A DNA stretch of 64,000 bases from NCBI RefSeq assembly GCF_003703835.1, contig NZ_RDQR01000002.1:1-64000 (forward strand), in the 5' to 3' direction. Under the pieces are notes generated by a model. The model saw only the letters and a program-made list of their open reading frames with translations. It did no database searches and had not been told where the DNA came from. The translations under genes and the position numbers were made by a program. The DNA comes from Auritidibacter ignavus. GTDB taxonomy: Bacteria; Actinomycetota; Actinomycetes; Actinomycetales; Micrococcaceae. Numbering within the stretch: position 1 is the first letter of the stretch; every line of letters starts with the position of its first letter. Shown one piece after another: positions 2,916 to 64,000 of the stretch.

Positions 2916-3922
2916 AACGGTCAATGTCGTTGAAGATGTTGCTTCGGGTCGCTAAACGTCGAGCTGTTATCGGCGTGAGTAGTCTCGGGCTCATCGGAAG
3001 CCTGGTCCTGTCCGGTTGTGGTTTGGGTACTGCCGGCGGTTACACTCCCTCGGGGACGCTGACCGGTGAGGTCGCCGACATTAGCCTTGACGGTGCCAGT
3101 ATTTCCGTTGGTTCCAAGAACTTCACCGAGCAAATCCTTCTGGGCAAGATCGCTGTGGTGCTACTGCAGTCAGCGGGGGCTGACGTTCAGGACCTGACGA
3201 ATATTCCCGGCTCGACCTCGGTTCGCCAGGCCCAGTTGACAGGTGATGTTGACCTCACCTTGGAATATACAGGGACAGCCTGGATCACATATATGGGGCA
3301 CACTGATCCGATACCCGATTCCCAGGAACAATACGAAGCTGTGCGGGACGCGGACAAGTCCAACGGGCTAACGTGGTACGAGCCCGCTGACATGAACAAC
3401 ACGTATACAATGGCTGTGCGCAGGGAGACGGCTGAAGAATACGGGGTCTCATCCCTGGACGATATGACGAAGCTCCCCGAGGCAGAACAAACATTTTGTG
3501 TGGATGCCGAGTTCCAGGCTCGCAATGATGGGTTTATCCCGATGCTGGAGGAATACGGGATGGATGAACCTCCTTCTGAACAGGTGTCGATTATCGACAC
3601 CGGAGCGATCTATGCGGCCCTTGCTAACGGAACCTGTACCTTCGGTGAGGTATTTTTCACCGACGGTCGTATTAAGGCGTTGGACCTGGTAGCGCTGGAA
3701 GACCCGCGGGGATTTTTCCCCAAATACAACATGGCACCGGTCGTTGACAGTGAGCTCGCCGAGCAATATCCCCAGCTTGAAGACCTCTTTGCGCCGGTCG
3801 TCGCTGACCTAGACAATGACCGGATGCAGGAACTTAATGCCCGCGTGGACGTGGACGGAGAAGATTACGGTGACGTGGCCTATGAATACCTTAAAGATTT
3901 GGGAGTAGTCACCGACAGCTAG
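2912..3922 (+). CDS. Osmoprotectant-binding lipoprotein (ProX/OpuBC family)
   Basis: The extracytoplasmic substrate-binding protein of the importer, 336 residues. I choose the GTG at 2912 because it overlaps the permease stop, follows a GAAGGGGG ribosome site, and gives a clean lipoprotein signal: basic residues, a hydrophobic core and the lipobox LSGC (around residue 36). The mature part starts with the family pattern ISVGSKNFTEQILLGK and contains the conserved ligand-box region LEYTGTAWITY. A longer frame from 2861 would put the signal inside the protein and is unlikely. Substrate choice among betaine, choline and carnitine cannot be told from sequence alone. Confidence 0.9.
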   Translation: MKRSMSLKMLLRVAKRRAVIGVSSLGLIGSLVLSGCGLGTAGGYTPSGTLTGEVADISLDGASISVGSKNFTEQILLGKIAVVLLQSAGADVQDLTNIPGSTSVRQAQLTGDVDLTLEYTGTAWITYMGHTDPIPDSQEQYEAVRDADKSNGLTWYEPADMNNTYTMAVRRETAEEYGVSSLDDMTKLPEAEQTFCVDAEFQARNDGFIPMLEEYGMDEPPSEQVSIIDTGAIYAALANGTCTFGEVFFTDGRIKALDLVALEDPRGFFPKYNMAPVVDSELAEQYPQLEDLFAPVVADLDNDRMQELNARVDVDGEDYGDVAYEYLKDLGVVTDS

Positions 3923-3924
3923 GG

Positions 3925-3960
3925 AGCGGACGGCATGACAACGTCCGCTAAAACGTTGTC
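3925..3960 (+). terminator. Two overlapping alternative hairpins after the importer operon
   Basis: AGCGGACG (3925-3932) can pair with CGTCCGCT (3942-3949). GACAACG (3937-3943) can instead pair with CGTTGTC (3954-3960). The two stems share bases and exclude each other. No T-run follows, so an ordinary rho-independent terminator is not shown. It may be a weak terminator or a processed 3' end. Confidence 0.3.
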
Positions 3961-3971
3961 TCGGGCTCAGC

Positions 3972-3995
3972 TACCTGTAACTCGAGTTGCAGGTA
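3972..3995. promoter_or_regulatory. 24-bp near-perfect palindrome upstream of fadA (candidate operator)
   Basis: Positions 3972-3995 read TACCTG-T-AACTC-GAGTT-G-CAGGTA and are a dyad with a single mismatched pair. It lies 64 bases before the fadA start and near the expected promoter. A TetR- or GntR-type repressor responding to acyl-CoA would fit the location, but no such regulator gene is adjacent. The regulator is therefore unknown. Confidence 0.45.
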
Positions 3996-4058
3996 TGAGA
4001 CGCTATCCTCAATACTGTTGGTTGAGTCCTAGCTCACAGAAAAGGAAAAGGAAGGTCC

Positions 4059-5267
4059 ATGCCCGAGGCATATATCTATGATGCCGTGCGAACTCCGCGC
4101 GGGAAGAATAAGAACGGGTCGTTGCACTCGGTGAAACCCATCGACCTGGTGGTGGGCTTGATCGAGGCTATCCAAGAACGCAACCCCTCGTTAGATCCAC
4201 AACTCATTGACGACATTGTCCTGGGCGTGGTCTCCCCGGTTGGAGACCAGGGTGGAGATATCGCTCGCGCCGCTGCCCTGGCTTCGTCCCTACCTGACAC
4301 GGCGGCTGGTGTGCAGGTCAACCGGTTCTGCGCCTCCGGCCTCGAAGCTGTGAACCTGGCCGCCCAGAAGATCGGCTCCGGCTTCGAAGATCTCGTGCTG
4401 GCCGGCGGCGTGGAATCCATGTCGCGGGTGCCACTGGGTGCTGACGGTGGCCCGTACTCTCAGGACCCCGCCACCGCCTATGACTCCTACTTCGTGCCCC
4501 AGGGTATCTCCGCAGACTTGATTGCCACGGTGGAAGGTTTCAGCCGCGAAGACGTCGACACCTACGCCGCTCGTTCCCAGCAGCGGGCTGAGACCGCGTG
4601 GCAAGAAGGTCGCTTCGACCGCTCGATCGTGCCGGTGAAAGACATCAACGGTCATGTGCTGCTCGACCACGATGAACACCGCCGTCCCGGCTCCACCGTG
4701 GAATCCCTGGGCGAACTGCCCGCCAGTTTCGCCAAGATCGGTGCCCAGGCTGGTTTCGATGACGTTGCCTTGCAGAAATACCACTGGTTGGAGCGGATCA
4801 ACCACGTCCACGGTCCCGGTAACTCTTCCGGCATCGTTGACGGCTCCGCCCTGGTGTTGCTCGGTTCTGCCGAGATCGGTGAGAAGCTGGGCCTGACCCC
4901 GCGCGCCAAGATTATTCAGACGGCGGTCACCGGGTCGGAACCGACCATCATGCTCACCGGCCCGACCCCGGCCACTGAGAAAGCACTGGCCAAGGCGGGT
5001 CTGAGCGTGGACGATATTGACCTGTTCGAACTCAATGAGGCCTTCGCCGCTGTGGTGATGAAGTGGCAGAAGGAGCTGGGCGTTCCGGATGAAAAGGTCA
5101 ACGTCAACGGTGGTGCCATCGCCATGGGCCATCCATTGGGTGCGACCGGCGCGATGATTTTGGGTACGTTGCTCGATGAGCTCGAGCGCACCGACCAGCA
5201 GCGCGGTCTGGCCACCCTGTGCATCGGTGGCGGCATGGGTATTGCGACCATTATCGAGCGAGTCTAA
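4059..5267 (+). CDS. fadA: Acetyl-CoA acyltransferase (3-ketoacyl-CoA thiolase)
   Basis: Cleaves 3-ketoacyl-CoA with CoA in the last step of beta-oxidation. Thiolase hallmarks are present: the acyl-accepting Cys in [10 protein letters not shown] (C91), His in GHPLGATGA (H358) and the proton-relay Cys in LCIGGGMG (C388). The length, 402, is normal. The ATG at 4059 follows a GGAAGG ribosome site. The multifunctional FadB-type gene starts 11 bases after the stop, so both subunits of a fatty-acid oxidation complex are probably made from one mRNA, possibly controlled by the palindrome at 3972-3995. Confidence 0.93.
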
Positions 5268-56205: not shown

Positions 56206-56738
56206 GCGGATCTGATCGAGCGGATCTGACTGTTCGGATCAGCGCGCCGCCTGCGGTGCCGGCCGAGAGCCAGCAGGACTGCCAAAGCTTCGGCTGGGAT
56301 GGTGACATCAAGACCGGTGCACTCGCGGAACAGCCGCAGCCGAGGTAGACGAGCACGGTATCGATGACGCGCTCACGCTCATCAGCGGCGAGGGTCGCCA
56401 GGCCAGCCTGGATCTCTGACCGCCGCTGGGGAACATCTCCGTCAGGTGCTCGTTGAGGAACGGCACCCACACCTCGCGCTCTGTCGCCCACGTCCCGGGT
56501 TCGGCGACCCGGTGCGTCAGCGGGCGCGGGTCAAAGGTAGGCGCGCTGTGCGTATGACGAGTACTCCTCGAGGGTCTTGAGCACCTCCTCGGCATAGGAG
56601 AGCAGGCGCGGTGCATCGGCCGCATCGGAGCAGCCGGACAGGCGCGCGTGAGGCGCGGCCGTGCACTCGACTGGCTGTGCCTCGGTAGGATCGCTGCAGG
56701 CCATCCGCTCACCGTTTCTGACGAGGAGAGAAGCCTGG
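56206..56738 (-). pseudogene. 533-bp stretch holding fragments of a decayed minus-strand gene
   Basis: No intact gene. On the minus strand protein-like pieces lie in different frames: MACSDPTEAQPVECTAAPHA, SYAEEVLKTLEEYSSYAQRA (ending near 56531), PRPLTHRVAEPGTWATEREV, WVPFLNEHLTEMFPS, and EIQAGLATLAADERERVIDT. Together they look like one protein interrupted by at least two frameshifts. I do not recognise it. Confidence 0.3.
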
Positions 56739-57551
56739 ATGACCTCCGAACCATCCATGCCCGCAGGCCGTAGCGCCGGCCACCTCATGGTCGAACAGCT
56801 CGTGCGCGAAAGCGTCGAGCCCCTCTACAGCGTGTCCGGTGAGAGCTTCCTCGACATCCTCGACGGCCTCTACGACGCCCCGATCACCAACGTCGTCGCC
56901 CGCCACGCAGGTGGCTCGGGATTCATGGCCCTGGCCGAGGCGCGCCTGACCGGCAGGCCCGGCGTCGTCATGGTCACCCGCGGACCGGGTGTGGCGAACG
57001 CGATGATTGCCATCCACACCGCCTATCAGGACCAGACGTCGCTCGTGATGTTCGTCGGCCTTATCCCCATCCCCGACCGCAATCGGGAGTCCTTCCAGGA
57101 ATTCGACCAGCATGCGTGGTTCGGCTCCACGGCGAAGAAGGTTCTCGTCCTCGACGACCCGGGCTCCGCCGGCGAACTCGTCTCCGATGCCATGCGCATG
57201 GCTGCCGGCGGACGGCCCGAACCGGTCGTCATCGGCGGTGACGGCTGGCAAGACGGCTGTGGAGCCGAGCTGGCCGCCTGGTGTGTAGCCCACGGGGTGT
57301 CGGTGACTTCCGACTTCCGCGTCTATGATGCGATCCCGGCCTCCAGCTCGGCCGCCATCCTCCCGGCTCTGACCGCCGAGGTGCCGGCCACCTCGGAAGC
57401 GGAAGCCCGCCGCACCCGACTGGAGCGGATGCGCAGCGAGCACGAGGCCTTCTCCACCGCCCGCGTCGACCGCGGGCTGGGCCGTCCACCTGCGGCGGTG
57501 ACCGGTCCCGAGGTTCTTCGGAACCACACGAGACCGGCCACCGGTGTTTAA
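56739..57551 (+). pseudogene. TPP-dependent enzyme (acetolactate-synthase-like), truncated
   Basis: The 270-codon frame from ATG 56739 (after GAGGAG) matches the N-terminal PYR domain of thiamine-diphosphate enzymes: LMVEQLVRESVEPLYSVSGE, the conserved activating region VVARHAGGSGFMALAEARLT with RHAGGSGFMA, and VVMVTRGPGVANAMIAIHTA. After GGDGWQDGCGAELAAWC only scraps of the central domain follow. The C-terminal TPP-binding domain (GDG...NN) is absent. The last 20 or so codons are foreign: they read through a copy of the terminator that follows the surface-protein gene. Normal members have about 550 residues. Confidence 0.7.
57496..57550 (+). repeat. Second copy of the surface-protein terminator region
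   Basis: 57496-57550 is closely similar to 63439-63492 (hairpin arms ACCGGTCCCG and CGAGACCGG around the loop GTTCTTCGGAACCACA), with a few substitutions that weaken the stem. It probably belonged to the lost 3' end of the paralogue whose start survives at 53466. The stretch 57552-57848 that follows is the leader of the giant surface-protein gene and has no gene of its own. Confidence 0.6.
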
Positions 57552-57848
57552 GACCCCACTTAGCGTTCAGGGGCAGCAATTCGGGTTCCAAGTGGCTGGC
57601 TTCTTGATCACGGTCTCAAGAGGTGCACATATGCCACTGATCTTCTGCAGGACTTGGGTTATTTGTTGTAACGAAAGATAACTAGATAGTTGTACGCCGT
57701 GGTATTCTGAGCGGTAGGTTACTCTATGGTCGGTGACAGCGGCCGCAGGGTCTATCATCACGATCACCTTCAGAAGGTTTTTCCGTGCGCGTGCACGGCG
57801 TTCTGTGGTGTGGTCACGTTTTTTCTCGACAGAAAGTGACTAGCCGTA

Positions 57849-60800
57849 ATGACTGAGATTTCCAAAAACTCTGCGGGACAGTGGCCAGCTTGGCGGCGCG
57901 GTGCCATGGCTGCCTTTACCGCTTTTGCTTTGGTTGGTGGTGGCGTTGTCTGTGACGTGACCCAGGCCACCGTGGCGCGAGCTGATCAAGCGGACGCTCC
58001 TGCAACAGACGCTCCCGCAGCAGGAGAAGACGCAACCACCCCCGCTACCGGCGAAGACGTCAGTGACGCCATTGTCCCCAAGAAAGTGAACCCTGAGGGT
58101 GCGACAAATCGTTACCCGCGGGCGACGAATCCGCAGGGTACTCGTCCGGCTCCGGTCGCTAGTGAAGTCACTGGTCCGGTGGATGCGGATGCGATTGCTG
58201 CTGGTCGAGTTCGTACTTATGGTCAATTCGCTGACGTCACCAACCGTGGCTCGTTGGGGACCTTCTCAGGTCGTTTGTACTACAGCAATGGTGTGTCTTT
58301 CGACTCCAGTAACTCTGGTGCGGAGGCGTTGAATGATGTGACTCTGTACTTGCAGTGGATGGATAAGGACTCGCCTGCTAGCCCGGTGTTCACCGCGAAG
58401 ACGCACAAATTGGCCGGTACCGACGGGGCTTTCGGTTTTGGTGATCTGAACTGGGTTGATGAGAACGGTACCTTGCACGTCTACGAGCCGATGAGCTTGA
58501 TTAACGATGTGCGGATCAAGGTGTGGGTTGCTCCGGGCCAGACTGGTCCCGGTGGGGGTGAGTTGAAGGCTATCCGTCAGGGTCCGGGGATGATGAACGG
58601 CTTCATGAACCCCGGCCGTGATGGTCACTTTGGTTCCTTTACCACCGAACAGTTCTCCACTCAACGTGGTTCGGTGTGGGTTTATGAGAAGCCTGAGGGT
58701 GCGGATCCTGCTAGCTACCTGACGACCCCGCGTGATCAGTGGAAGATCGATAACGAAGGTCCGGTGCCCACGCCGTCCAACACTTCCGGTGTGGGTGGCA
58801 ACGGCCCCAACATGGTTTCTGGCCGTGTTTGGTGGGAATCGGGCGAACCTGATCTTTTCGTTCCTTTCCCGACCCGCGCCGGTGAGAATCCTGCTCCCGG
58901 TACTCGGGTGGTGATGTCGGTGCTGACTGCGGAAGGTCGTTCGGCTATTCGTGGTTTGGGTAATCTGCCTACGGGTCAGCGGCTTCAGCAGCAGAAAGCG
59001 TTGTTGGAAGCGAATCCGCAGCAGATTAAGCAAACTGTGGTTGCCCCGGTTGGGGACAATGGTCGGTACACGGTGCGTTTCGATCAGCCTATCCCGAATG
59101 CTGACGCGTTGTATGGTTTCGTGATTAATACCGACGATGAGATTGTGGCTGGTTACACGCCGTGGACTGTCCCGGCGTTTGGTGATCCGAATGATGGTAC
59201 TCACACCGCGGCCTTCTGGCAGCCGGCTCGTGGCTCCCTGTACAACGTGTACTTCGCGCTGGTGCCTGACCCGAACCGTGCTGACATTTCGCTTGATCAC
59301 GACACCGGTGCCAACACCGCCGGTGTTGGTGATGTGGTGACCCCGAGTGTCAATACCGTATTCTACCCCGGCCAGAATTACGCCATCCGCTGGGTTGATG
59401 AGAACGGTAACCAGGTCGGTAATGACTGCAAGATTACCTCGGCTGCTGAGGCTGCCAACTGCACCTTCACGGTACCCGAAAATGCTGAGCCTGGAACCGT
59501 TTACCAGGCGCGGTTGATCATCAACGGCAACATTATGGACTCGGCAGCTTTCCGCGTCACTGAATACGCAGAAACGCTGGACCCTGCTTATGAGAATGCT
59601 TCTGGTGCGCCGGGTGAGCAGGTAACTGTCCCGGCACCGACCTACAAGAACAACCAGGGCCAGGATGTTTCGGCCCCAGCTGGTACAAAATACGCCCTGC
59701 GGGACGACGCCCCCGAGGGGGCGACCATCGATGAGAACACCGGTGAGATCACCTACACGATTGCAGAGGATGCACGAAATGGGTCCTCGATCGATATCCC
59801 CGTCGTGGTGACTTACGCTGATGAGTCCGTTGACCACGTGACCGCCACGGTGAACGTGGTTGAGCCTGGTGTTGTGTCTTACCCGGATGTGACTGTGGGT
59901 GATGATGGGGATCGTCAGGTGTCTGTGGATCCGGTGATTACTGATGCTGAGGGTAACCCTGCTGAGAAGGGTGAGGGTGACCGGTTTGAGTTCGGTGAGT
60001 TGCCGGATGGATTCGTGAAGGATCCTTCTGATGAGTCGGGCAATACCATTATTTGGAATGGTGGCACTGAAGATCCTGCTGATGACATTACGGTGGTGAT
60101 TGATCCGGAGACGGGTCAGATTACCGTGGATGCTGGTGAGGATGCTGATACCCAGGGCCCGGTTCAGGTTCCGGTCCGGGTTGTGGATCAGGATGGTAAG
60201 CCCACGTATGAGGGTTCGGTGACCATCGACGTTGATCCGAAGGCTCCGGCGCAGGCTGAAACCTTCGAGCCCGCATATGAGAACGCTTCTGGTGCGCCGG
60301 GTGAGCAGGTAACTGTCCCGGCTCCGTCGTTCACCGATGCTGAAGGTAAAGAGGCCGAGGCTCCGGAGGGGACCTCGTTCCAGGCTGGTGAGAACGCTCC
60401 TGAGGGTGTGACCATCGATGAGAACACTGGTGAGATCACGTTCACTGTTCCGGAGGGTGCTACCCCTGGTGAGACCATTGAGATCCCTGTGGTGGTGACC
60501 TACCCGGATGGTTCCACCGATGAGGTCACGGTGACCGTGACGGTGGATGAGCCGGAGGTTGTTGAGCCTGGTGTTGTGTCTTACCCGGATGTGACTGTGG
60601 GTGATGATGGGGATCGTCAGGTGTCTGTGGATCCGGTGATTACTGATGCTGAGGGTAACCCTGCTGAGAAGGGTGAGGGTGACCGGTTTGAGTTCGGTGA
60701 GTTGCCGGATGGATTCGTGAAGGATCCTTCTGATGAGTCGGGCAATACCATTATTTGGAATGGTGGCACTGAAGATCCTGCTGATGACATTACGGTGGTG

Positions 60801-63404
60801 ATTGATCCGGAGACGGGTCAGATTACCGTGGATGCTGGTGAGGATGCTGATACCCAGGGCCCGGTTCAGGTTCCGGTCCGGGTTGTGGATCAGGATGGTA
60901 AGCCCACGTATGAGGGTTCGGTGACCATCGACGTTGATCCGAAGGCTCCGGCGCAGGCTGAAACCTTCGAGCCCGCATATGAGAACGCTTCTGGTGCGCC
61001 GGGTGAGCAGGTAACTGTCCCGGCTCCTTCGTTCACCGATGCTGAAGGTAAAGAGGCCGAGGCTCCGGAGGGGACCTCGTTCCAGGCTGGTGAGAACGCT
61101 CCCGAGGGTGTCAGTGTTGATGAGAACACTGGTGAGATCACGTTCACTGTTCCGGAGGGTGCTACCCCTGGTGAGACCATTGAGATTCCTGTGGTCGTGA
61201 CCTACCCGGATGGTTCCACCGATGAGGTCACGGTGACCGTGACGGTGGATGAGCCGGACAACGGCGGTGGCCAGGAGGACACCCTGGCTGACATCACCAC
61301 ACCGACGTGGGAGAACGGTACCGTTGAGCCTGGTGGGTCGGTAGATATCCCGAATTCTGGTGACCAACTGCCGGAAGGCTCCAAGGTCGAGGCCACTGCC
61401 GATGCTGAAGGTTGGAAGGTGTCGGCCACCGATGATGGTACCCTCACCGTCACCGCACCCGAGGGAGCTGCTGACGGTGACAAGACCACTATCGAGGTGA
61501 CCGCGACCTACCCGGATGGTTCGCAGGATGTTGAGAAGGTCACCGTGACCGTCAACGACCCCAATGGTGGTGGCGACGATGAGGAGGACGGTACCCAGGC
61601 TGATGACATCACTCCATCGTGGGTGAACAGCCAGGTTGCTCCCGGTGAGTCCGTTGAGGTTCCGAACACGGGCGAAGAGATTCCGGAAGGTTCCACCGTT
61701 GAAGCCAGCACTGATGCCGAAGGCTGGCAAGTTTCGGCCACCAACGACGGCACTCTGACCGTGACTGCACCGGAAGGTGCCTCGCACGGTGACAAGGCTG
61801 TGGTGACTGTCCAGGTCACCTACCCGGATGGTTCTGTTGACACCGAACAGGTCAGCGTCACTGTCGTTGACCCGGCTGTCGGTGATGACGATGACAACAA
61901 CAACCAAGCTGCTGAGGTTCAGCCCAACTGGGATAACCAGGAAGTGGCGCCGGGCGAGTCGGTGACTGCGCCGAATAATGGTGATGCGTTGCCAGAAGGC
62001 TCTGAGGTCGAAGCGACTTCTTCCCAGGATGGCTGGAACGTGACCGTCGGCGATGATCACGGGATAACTGTCACTGCTCCGGAGAATGCCTCCACGGGTG
62101 ATAAAACCACGATCACGGTAACTGTGACCTATCCGGACGGTTCCACTGACACCGAGACCTTCACCGTGACCGTCAATGACCCGAGTGGTGATAACGGTGG
62201 TGAAGAACCTGGCAGTGACCAAGCGAGCGAGGTAACTCCGAACTGGGACAACACCACTGCTCAACCAGGTCAGACTGTTGAGGTGCCGAATAACGGTGAC
62301 GAACTGCCGGAAGGCTCTCAGGTCGAAGTTGCGTCCGATCAGGACGGTTGGACCGTTGAGGTTGGCGAGGACGGTAGCACTATCAAGGTGACTGCCCCAG
62401 AAGGTGCCACCTCGGGCGACAAGACCGAAATTACCGTGACCGTGACCTACCCGGATGGCTCCACTGACACCGAAACCTTCACCGTGACCGTGACCGAGCC
62501 ATCTGATGGTGGTGAGGGACCTGGTGAGCAGGAGAAGCCGAACTGGGGTGACGCTGAGGGTGAGCCTGGTGAGCGGATCGTGATCCCGAATGAGGGTGGC
62601 GAGGTTCCTGAGGACACCACTGTTGAGGTGGAAGGCCCAGGACGTGCCTCGATCGACGAGGACGGCAACCTGGTTGTCGAAATCGATAAGGATGCGAAGC
62701 CTCGTGACACCATTGTGGTGGTCGTCAAGGACAAGGACGGCAACGTGATCGATGAGATCACCGTGACCGTGACCGAGCCATCTGATGGTGGTGAGGGACC
62801 TGGTGAGCAGGAGAAGCCGAACTGGGGTGACGCTGAGGGTGAGCCTGGTGAGCGGATCGTGATCCCGAATGAGGGTGGCGAGGTTCCTGAGGACACCACT
62901 GTTGAGGTGGAAGGCCCAGGACGTGCCTCGATCGACGAGGACGGCAACCTGGTTGTCGAAATCGATAAGGATGCGAAGCCTGGTGACACCATTGTGGTGG
63001 TCGTCAAGGACAAGGACGGCAACGTGATCGATGAGATCACCGTGACCGTGACCGAGCCATCTGATGATGGCGGTGCTGGTGACGGTGGCGACAAGCCTGG
63101 TGACGGTGGCGACAAGCCTGGTGACGGTTCCGGTAAGCCTGGTGATGGCGGCGCTGGTGACGGTTCCGGTAAGCCTGGTGATGGCGGCGCTGGTGACGGT
63201 GCTGGTGACGGTTCCGGCAAGCCTGGTGATGGCGGTTCTGGTGACGGTGCTGGCGATGGCGCTGGTTACGCCTCCGATGCGTCGAGTGACCACAGTGACA
63301 AGCTGGCTTCGACTGGTGCTGGCGTGCTGGGCGCGTTGGGTCTGGGTGGTCTGCTGGCTGCGGCCGGTGGCCTGTTGGCCCGTCGTCGCAAGTCTGAGGA
63401 CTAA
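57849..63404 (+). CDS. Giant cell-wall-anchored surface protein with YPDG-type repeats and LAxTG sorting signal
   Basis: An 1851-residue surface adhesin-like protein. A signal peptide (residues 1-45, ending near TVARA) is followed by a unique A-region to about residue 575. Then come Rib/YPDG-type beta domains: YPDGSTDEVTVTVTVDEP and similar ends. Residues 671-904 and 905-1138 are a 234-residue unit repeated twice. Four diverged domains of about 90 residues (NxGDxLPEGSxVE) and two nearly identical 93-residue units follow, then a Gly/Asp/Lys/Pro linker (GDGSGKPGDGG). The C-terminus is LASTG, a hydrophobic helix and RRRKSED, a class E sortase signal. The protein is very acidic. It probably projects from the wall for adhesion. 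A broken paralogue lies 4.4 kb upstream. Confidence 0.92.
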   Translation: MTEISKNSAGQWPAWRRGAMAAFTAFALVGGGVVCDVTQATVARADQADAPATDAPAAGEDATTPATGEDVSDAIVPKKVNPEGATNRYPRATNPQGTRPAPVASEVTGPVDADAIAAGRVRTYGQFADVTNRGSLGTFSGRLYYSNGVSFDSSNSGAEALNDVTLYLQWMDKDSPASPVFTAKTHKLAGTDGAFGFGDLNWVDENGTLHVYEPMSLINDVRIKVWVAPGQTGPGGGELKAIRQGPGMMNGFMNPGRDGHFGSFTTEQFSTQRGSVWVYEKPEGADPASYLTTPRDQWKIDNEGPVPTPSNTSGVGGNGPNMVSGRVWWESGEPDLFVPFPTRAGENPAPGTRVVMSVLTAEGRSAIRGLGNLPTGQRLQQQKALLEANPQQIKQTVVAPVGDNGRYTVRFDQPIPNADALYGFVINTDDEIVAGYTPWTVPAFGDPNDGTHTAAFWQPARGSLYNVYFALVPDPNRADISLDHDTGANTAGVGDVVTPSVNTVFYPGQNYAIRWVDENGNQVGNDCKITSAAEAANCTFTVPENAEPGTVYQARLIINGNIMDSAAFRVTEYAETLDPAYENASGAPGEQVTVPAPTYKNNQGQDVSAPAGTKYALRDDAPEGATIDENTGEITYTIAEDARNGSSIDIPVVVTYADESVDHVTATVNVVEPGVVSYPDVTVGDDGDRQVSVDPVITDAEGNPAEKGEGDRFEFGELPDGFVKDPSDESGNTIIWNGGTEDPADDITVVIDPETGQITVDAGEDADTQGPVQVPVRVVDQDGKPTYEGSVTIDVDPKAPAQAETFEPAYENASGAPGEQVTVPAPSFTDAEGKEAEAPEGTSFQAGENAPEGVTIDENTGEITFTVPEGATPGETIEIPVVVTYPDGSTDEVTVTVTVDEPEVVEPGVVSYPDVTVGDDGDRQVSVDPVITDAEGNPAEKGEGDRFEFGELPDGFVKDPSDESGNTIIWNGGTEDPADDITVVIDPETGQITVDAGEDADTQGPVQVPVRVVDQDGKPTYEGSVTIDVDPKAPAQAETFEPAYENASGAPGEQVTVPAPSFTDAEGKEAEAPEGTSFQAGENAPEGVSVDENTGEITFTVPEGATPGETIEIPVVVTYPDGSTDEVTVTVTVDEPDNGGGQEDTLADITTPTWENGTVEPGGSVDIPNSGDQLPEGSKVEATADAEGWKVSATDDGTLTVTAPEGAADGDKTTIEVTATYPDGSQDVEKVTVTVNDPNGGGDDEEDGTQADDITPSWVNSQVAPGESVEVPNTGEEIPEGSTVEASTDAEGWQVSATNDGTLTVTAPEGASHGDKAVVTVQVTYPDGSVDTEQVSVTVVDPAVGDDDDNNNQAAEVQPNWDNQEVAPGESVTAPNNGDALPEGSEVEATSSQDGWNVTVGDDHGITVTAPENASTGDKTTITVTVTYPDGSTDTETFTVTVNDPSGDNGGEEPGSDQASEVTPNWDNTTAQPGQTVEVPNNGDELPEGSQVEVASDQDGWTVEVGEDGSTIKVTAPEGATSGDKTEITVTVTYPDGSTDTETFTVTVTEPSDGGEGPGEQEKPNWGDAEGEPGERIVIPNEGGEVPEDTTVEVEGPGRASIDEDGNLVVEIDKDAKPRDTIVVVVKDKDGNVIDEITVTVTEPSDGGEGPGEQEKPNWGDAEGEPGERIVIPNEGGEVPEDTTVEVEGPGRASIDEDGNLVVEIDKDAKPGDTIVVVVKDKDGNVIDEITVTVTEPSDDGGAGDGGDKPGDGGDKPGDGSGKPGDGGAGDGSGKPGDGGAGDGAGDGSGKPGDGGSGDGAGDGAGYASDASSDHSDKLASTGAGVLGALGLGGLLAAAGGLLARRRKSED
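59859..61262 (+). repeat. Two tandem 702-bp repeats inside the surface-protein gene
   Basis: Unit 1 is 59859-60560, unit 2 60561-61262. They are nearly identical, with only a few base changes, mostly near the end (for example ACCATCGAT in unit 1 against AGTGTTGAT in unit 2). The period of 702 is a multiple of three, so copy number can change without breaking the gene. Confidence 0.9.
62501..63058 (+). repeat. Two tandem 279-bp repeats near the 3' end of the surface-protein gene
   Basis: Units 62501-62779 and 62780-63058 are almost identical; one visible change turns GAAGCCTCGTGAC into AAGCCTGGTGAC (Arg to Gly). Each encodes 93 residues, in frame. Confidence 0.9.
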
Positions 63405-63441
63405 GACTCTGCGCTGCTACTAGTGGTGTAGTTACTGGCGG

Positions 63442-63493
63442 TGGCCGGTCCCGGGTTCTTCGGAACTACACGGGACCGGCCACTGGCGTTTTT
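63442..63493 (+). terminator. Rho-independent terminator of the surface-protein gene
   Basis: TGGCCGGTCCCG (63442-63453) pairs over 12 bases with CGGGACCGGCCA (63471-63482), followed by CTGGCG and TTTTT (63489-63493). It lies 37 bases after the stop. A mutated copy is at 57496-57550. Confidence 0.85.
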
Positions 63494-63530
63494 AGGCGTC
63501 CACGACGGGCGTGACGGTGTGGCATAAACG

Positions 63531-63564
63531 ATGAGGGGCTTTCACACGTGTGAAAGCCCCTCAT
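63531..63564. terminator. Perfect 34-bp palindrome between convergent genes
   Basis: ATGAGGGGCTTTCACAC (63531-63547) is followed at once by its exact reverse complement (63548-63564). A 17-base stem without loop bases can form on either strand. It lies 25 bases after the end of the minus-strand CoA-binding gene and most likely ends its transcription. The T-run is short. Confidence 0.6.
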
Positions 63565-63589
63565 TGTGGTCCCTTGCACGAATCTGGTT

Positions 63590-64000
63590 CTATCGATCTA
63601 ATTCCTGGCGGCGCGAAGAGATGACCCCGGTGTTGAAACCAGCGAGGTTCAGCCCGCCGTGGAAGCGAGCGTGTTCAATTTTCACGCAACGGTCCATGAC
63701 GATATTCATGCCATACGACTCGGCCAGGTGTGCCGCCTCTTCATTCCAGATACCCAGCTGGAGCCAGACGATCTTGGCCCCGACGTTGTGGGCATCTTCG
63801 ACAACCGCGGGAGTGTCTTCGGGTTTTCGGAAGACGTCGACGATATCGGGTACGACGGGCAGTGCCTCGAGGCTCGGATACACCTTGTGGCCCAAGATTT
63901 TCCCACCCTTCTCCGCGAGAACCGGGTTGATGAAATACACATCGAAGGTGGTGGAACTAAGCAGGTAAGTCGCGACAAAGTTGGACGCACGGGAGGGCTT
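63590..64000 (-). CDS. CoA-binding-domain protein (YccU-like), N-terminus outside the window
   Basis: 137 codons open to the right edge. The visible part reads KPSRASNFVATYLLSSTTFD, VYFINP, GGKILGHKVYPSLEALP, IVDVFRKPEDTPAVVEDA, and IVWLQLGIWNEEAAHLAESY, ending with CVKIEHARF and a GGLNLAGFNTGVISSRR tail. This is the CoA_binding_2 / YccU family, a small Rossmann-like protein of unknown role. About 20-25 residues are missing at the N-terminus. A GTG at 63940 inside the domain is not the start. Confidence 0.88.
   Translation of the reverse strand, partial: KPSRASNFVATYLLSSTTFDVYFINPVLAEKGGKILGHKVYPSLEALPVVPDIVDVFRKPEDTPAVVEDAHNVGAKIVWLQLGIWNEEAAHLAESYGMNIVMDRCVKIEHARFHGGLNLAGFNTGVISSRRQELDR

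Follow-up and report, generated by a model that had tools for sequence, protein, structure and literature searches.

A predicted wall-anchored Rib/YPDG surface protein of Auritidibacter ignavus with two near-identical pairs of stalk units and a head common in staphylococci

The window analysed here is a 64,000-base stretch of Auritidibacter ignavus DNA (59.8% G+C) on a contig of 191,690 bases; the draft genome totals 2.59 Mb in 53 contigs. Well inside this contig lies a single open reading frame with an ATG start (57849-63404, +) that encodes a predicted wall-anchored Rib/YPDG surface protein of 1851 amino acids. A sequence-only reading had placed the gene at exactly these coordinates and assigned its product to the YPDG family. 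The domain searches bear this out, with matches far above the cut-offs to Pfam RibLong (PF18957; 490.9 bits against a cut-off of 27) and NCBIfam YPDG_rpt (NF038186; 539.2 bits against 40). The same reading called the protein giant; its size stands at 1851 residues, and the word is a relative one only, the open frame of one staphylococcal relative reaching 5014 codons.

The protein begins with a probable signal peptide (residues 1-45; 57849-57983, +), recognized by eye from a charged start, a hydrophobic core and the sequence ARA before D46. It is followed by an N-terminal head module of about 475 residues (approximately residues 101-575; 58149-59573, +), which is conserved in relatives and in which the alignment of heads places a cysteine pair, C527/C538 (59427-59462, +). 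The stalk consists of 11 YPDG/Rib-matching stretches, in the order A0, B1, A1, B2, A2, C1-C4, D1, D2, where the letters are labels assigned in this analysis. Domain A0, delimited by domain matches (59574-59858, +), precedes two copies of a 702-bp unit delimited by repeat comparison, the first comprising B1 and A1 (59859-60560, +) and the second B2 and A2 (60561-61258, +). Next come the apparently older YPDG/Rib domains C1-C4 (61296-62492, +), which share 57-72% protein identity among the four, and two copies of a 279-bp unit, also delimited by repeat comparison, that carry D1 (62479-62757, +) and D2 (62758-63036, +). A putative wall-spanning spacer of short Gly/Asp/Lys-rich repeats (63061-63270, +; Tandem Repeats Finder arrays with periods of 21, 36 and 48) leads to the sorting motif LASTG (residues 1819-1823; 63303-63317, +), a hydrophobic stretch and an RRRK tail. 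In a sequence search of the PDB, the stalk matched the solved Rib-type domains 6s5w, 9avk, 6s5y and 6s5x. Tandem Rib domains are described as elongated rods (PMC6936399), and the window stalk probably has the same shape.

The C-terminus carries the features of a class E sortase substrate, namely an LAxTG motif, a hydrophobic stretch and a charged tail, in a genome that encodes a class E sortase. LAxTG is the motif reported to be recognized by class E sortases (PMC5148588). A genome search with PF04203 identified a single sortase, which NCBIfam assigns to class E (216 bits against a cut-off of 160). The LPXTG-anchor model TIGR01167 scored 13.7 bits at residues 1818-1848, below its cut-off of 15.9. 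Because class E is the only sortase class found, anchoring by sortase E is consistent with the genome, and LASTG can be read as a class E sorting signal mediating putative wall attachment. The LAxTG anchor proposed from the letters of the window alone is thus present, alongside a sole sortase of the class to which it was attributed.

Both repeat units are tandem, near-identical and multiples of three in length, as had been claimed, and each is present in two copies, with no longer arrays. The 702-bp copies (59859-60556 versus 60561-61258) differ at 9 of 698 bases (98.7% identity), changing seven codons, five of them synonymously. The 279-bp period, which comprises D and its linker, was compared over 62479-62787 versus 62758-63066 and shows one difference in 309 bases, the identity thus continuing beyond D2 to 63066. 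At the protein level, these are two copies of 234 residues and two of 93 residues, each pair about 99% identical. When the DNA of all eleven stalk domains was compared, B1 and B2 were 100% identical over 396 bases, D1 and D2 rounded to 100%, and A1 and A2 were 97% identical; every other pair of stalk domains in the gene showed 51-70% identity. Given these values for the other pairs, the identity of the units does not stem from chance or protein constraint, and both the 702-bp and the 279-bp copies are best explained by their sequence as recent duplications or homogenized copies, in agreement with the initial proposal. The differences between the 702-bp copies are lopsided: the first 467 bases are identical and all nine differences fall within the last 231. 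Counted as five clustered events, this clustering has a p value of about 0.004 in a post hoc test. Partial gene conversion affecting B could account for such a distribution, as could conversion of A with other domains as donors.

The copy number could in principle be an artefact of the draft assembly, produced by merging genuine copies or by adding a spurious second one. The 467-base identical run exceeds common short reads, the genome is in 53 contigs, and in one relative (G790) the gene is split across contigs within its repeats. We consider such an artefact highly improbable in the window gene, where nine positions in the 702-bp unit and one in the 279-bp unit distinguish the copies and where the gene lies deep within the 191,690-base contig. 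Because the copies differ and the gene is interior to a long contig, each unit likely has at least two real copies; given the 467-base identical run in a draft, the true number possibly exceeds two.

In Pfam and NCBIfam, no family reaches its cut-off with the window head. The other 23 heads in a 24-member alignment (A2) were compared by E-value rather than by cut-off; MG2 is the best Pfam family, detected in 15 of the 24 at an E-value of 0.1 or lower, the best being 0.00013, and NCBIfam yielded a single weak and implausible family, in 2 of the 24. Searched against solved structures, the head profile gave no good match, the best being the S-layer protein Sap at E 0.12. A structure model built from 5 sequences was poor (pLDDT 55), and the fold search on that model was not used. 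The AlphaFold model built from 24 sequences reached a pLDDT of 72.9 and a pTM of 0.75, and its residues 372-476 resemble the MG domains of complement and macroglobulin proteins, with Z scores of 8.5-10.8 and rmsd of 2.0-3.4 over 82-96 aligned residues among the best 50 matches listed, in a fold search that barely probed the head outside this part. The sole clear fold match within the head is therewith a predicted MG2-like Ig domain formed by its last ~105 residues. A likeness to the shaft pilin SpaD suggested by Foldseek was rejected as too weak (TM about 0.2). Exactly two cysteines are present in the window head (A2 columns 469 and 481) and exactly two in the head of another genome of the same family, G093 (columns 468 and 481), whereas 21 of the 22 staphylococcal rows have no cysteine and the remaining row has a single one elsewhere. 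This pattern suggests that the actinobacterial heads carry a disulfide in their MG2-like part.

A scan of genome contigs recovered three head loci, in Staphylococcus edaphicus and two S. simulans strains, at 31-36% identity. Within the genus of the S. edaphicus genome, head matches were found in 35 of 84 genomes (27 full length and 8 partial); one full-length copy, in G827, is interrupted by a stop. Across the class of that genome, 12 of 319 genomes matched, and the six full-length cases consist of five already counted and one new. Among 395 genomes of the window's own family, sampled from 32 genera, a single-sequence search detected the head in two, the window genome itself and G093. A profile search of the family raised this to 6 of 390, with full-length heads in the same two genomes only. 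Partial matches (L056-L062) occur in G011, G064, G094 and G245, in two of these genomes as separate N-terminal and C-terminal segments; they are possibly distant versions of the head. The phylum sample contained the head in the window genome only (1/396 by single sequence, 1/392 by profile). A single relative was found among plasmids, in a Staphylococcus haemolyticus record, and none among viral contigs. The head family is, then, frequent among staphylococci but seldom found in the family of the window, and neither the Pfam nor the NCBIfam library used here contains an entry for it.

Most of these heads sit on the same kind of stalk. The sequence past the head was readable in 25 of 26 relatives, and all 25 enter Rib/YPDG-type sequence within about 165 residues, as judged by eye; in L031 and L032 it comes after one other domain, and L049 is interrupted by a stop. 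The head of G093 is instead joined to a short Ala/Asp/Glu-rich repeat stalk that matches no Pfam family. A tree built from the 24 heads places the window row with uncertainty, on a branch of 2.85; because this branch is so long, we make no statement on the direction or age of any transfer of the head. We found no description of the head in the literature searched; most subscription papers lie outside that literature, so the head may have been published. The available text of PMC9210967, on new adhesive domains, makes no mention of Rib.

The window genus is represented by one genome; changes in unit number were compared in three pairs of staphylococcal relatives. The heads of G824 and G825 (L063 and L064) differ at 2 of 1386 bases, and their genes carry 2 and 3 Rib domains, respectively, counts that Pfam also returns; the length difference is exactly 258 bases, in frame. 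Each of these two genes is broken by one in-frame stop downstream of the YSIRK signal part and upstream of the head, at a position that differs between the two; sequencing error, an on/off state or decay in each gene independently could be the cause. Because both carry a premature stop, their unit change may have arisen in a non-functional gene. In the second pair, G865 and G794, which are about 91.5% identical over the aligned 5' stretch, motif counts give 4 versus 1 Rib domains; the signal part is missing from the long frame of G794. G821 and G860 have three Rib domains each and differ in the count of a further stalk domain, with at least 3 in G821, which is cut by its contig end, and 2 in G860. 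In other relatives, Tandem Repeats Finder identified units of 255-258 bases in 4.9, 9.0 and 26.9 copies, with 95%, 87% and 67% matches, respectively. Judged from these sequences, the stalk architecture does change length in evolution, with a single clean in-frame unit step in one pair. The proposal that unit number can change is accordingly upheld in relatives only, for 2 versus 3 domains in near-identical genes and 1 versus 4 in more distant ones.

The stalk of the window protein might nevertheless be effectively fixed in length within its species, the duplications being recent or homogenized by conversion and having no consequential variation. Only two copies of each unit are present, and the patchy distribution of differences in the 702-bp unit (0 in 467 bases, 9 in 231) disfavours duplication followed by even mutation and fits partial conversion of B. 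We regard a fixed length as rather unlikely, considering that unit number varies in relatives bearing the same head and that similar near-identical tandem units vary in other Rib proteins: R28 is reported with 1-17 Rib repeats, unit loss being linked to homologous recombination (PMC9704523). In streptococcal Alpha-like proteins (Rib, Alpha C and R28), the tandem Rib-type domains likewise have near-identical DNA, whereas the window stalk is mostly of the longer RibLong/YPDG type; no AlphaC_N-type head was detected in Pfam scans of the whole window protein or of its head at E up to 1.

The closest parallel is offered by the Periscope Proteins, in which a variable number of near-identical tandem stalk domains sets the projection of an N-terminal domain, and among whose founding examples are Rib proteins (PMC8201768). 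With SasG, Rib and Sgo_0707, the window protein shares tandem repeats well over 50 residues long and over 80% identical, as found by DNA and protein comparison rather than with T-REKS, the repeat-sequence criterion being that of PMC8201768. It also shares a predicted stalk of folded domains, probably rod-shaped to judge from the domain families, an N-terminal globular region and a putative C-terminal wall anchor (PMC8201768). In contrast to these proteins, it has two copies per unit, a different, uncatalogued head family, and LAxTG with a class E sortase in an actinobacterium in place of LPxTG. Wall proteins with Rib domains are known in coagulase-negative staphylococci (PMC8360574), which belong to the genus where the head is common; they resemble the window protein as wall-anchored proteins with a Rib stalk. 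The staphylococcal relatives of the head that were read differ from the window protein in having a YSIRK signal peptide, an LPxTG anchor, shorter Rib units of 86 residues and heads without the cysteine pair.

From its sequence, the window protein probably works like a Periscope Protein, and we have good confidence that it is a fibrillar, wall-anchored, Rib-stalk protein of this type whose stalk was lengthened twice in frame by tandem duplication and whose units are recombinable. Eleven Rib/YPDG-type domains would form the rod that carries the globular head, the Gly/Asp-rich spacer would cross the wall, and the class E sortase would attach the LASTG signal. The stalk would have been extended once by a 234-residue B-A unit and once by a 93-residue D unit, and the near-identical DNA could let homologous recombination add, remove or homogenize units in this species as well. 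Unit gain or loss would alter how far the head projects, so that stalk length might act as a switch; it might also bring the antigenic change suggested at the outset, and with it an immune role.

The head may be an adhesin, a reading based on architecture, since the head matches no known adhesive family; the window layout is the usual one of fibrillar adhesins, with an N-terminal globular region, a tandem stalk and a C-terminal anchor (PMC8286594). This layout makes it unlikely, in our view, that the head instead serves another surface role (as an enzyme, in cell-cell or biofilm contact, or in envelope structure), with stalk length setting no distance for ligand binding, even though no adhesive Pfam or NCBIfam family matches it and the MG2-like Ig domain, its only clear fold match, also occurs in non-adhesive proteins. 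The repeats are ordinary for a Periscope-type protein, and the head family is the less ordinary part. We tentatively suggest, as a reading that may well prove wrong, that it is an undescribed, widespread family of surface-protein heads transferred, for the most part along with Rib-type stalks, between staphylococci and members of the window's actinobacterial family, the actinobacterial branch gaining the disulfide in the MG2-like part and lineages re-tuning reach by gain and loss of stalk units. The length-variable Rib-stalk proteins in the literature cited come from streptococci and staphylococci; here, the same architecture appears in an actinobacterium whose only sortase found is of class E. 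The head gives a tangible candidate for a new family of surface proteins, one whose ligand could be sought with a single recombinant domain.

A 1675-residue open reading frame on the opposite strand (58266-63293, -) was considered as an overlapping gene and rejected, being explained by codon usage. In 500 shuffles that preserved the protein and its codon usage, the longest antisense frame averaged 1405 codons, and 76 of the 500 reached the observed 1712 codons, all in the same frame as the observed one; the long antisense frame results from avoidance of TTA, CTA and TCA. A promoter and terminator scan of 57540-63600 gave nothing useful, with one promoter-like site (1.9 expected) and eight terminator-like sites (4.1 expected). 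Of the 559 positions in a model of a thiamine-pyrophosphate enzyme, the upstream neighbour (56661-57551, +) matches only the first ~163, and it looks truncated from its sequence. The genome also contains a second, decayed Rib/YPDG surface-protein gene (L027, approximately 3325-4650; G000:C1, about 168.3-169.6 kb, -), in which a signal-like start and the YPDG part are in different frames. Both Rib loci are near O-acetylhomoserine sulfhydrylase/cystathionine gamma-synthase genes (window 63590 onward, corresponding to L025 1125-2423, and L027 184-2942), a shared neighbourhood that may be a coincidence.
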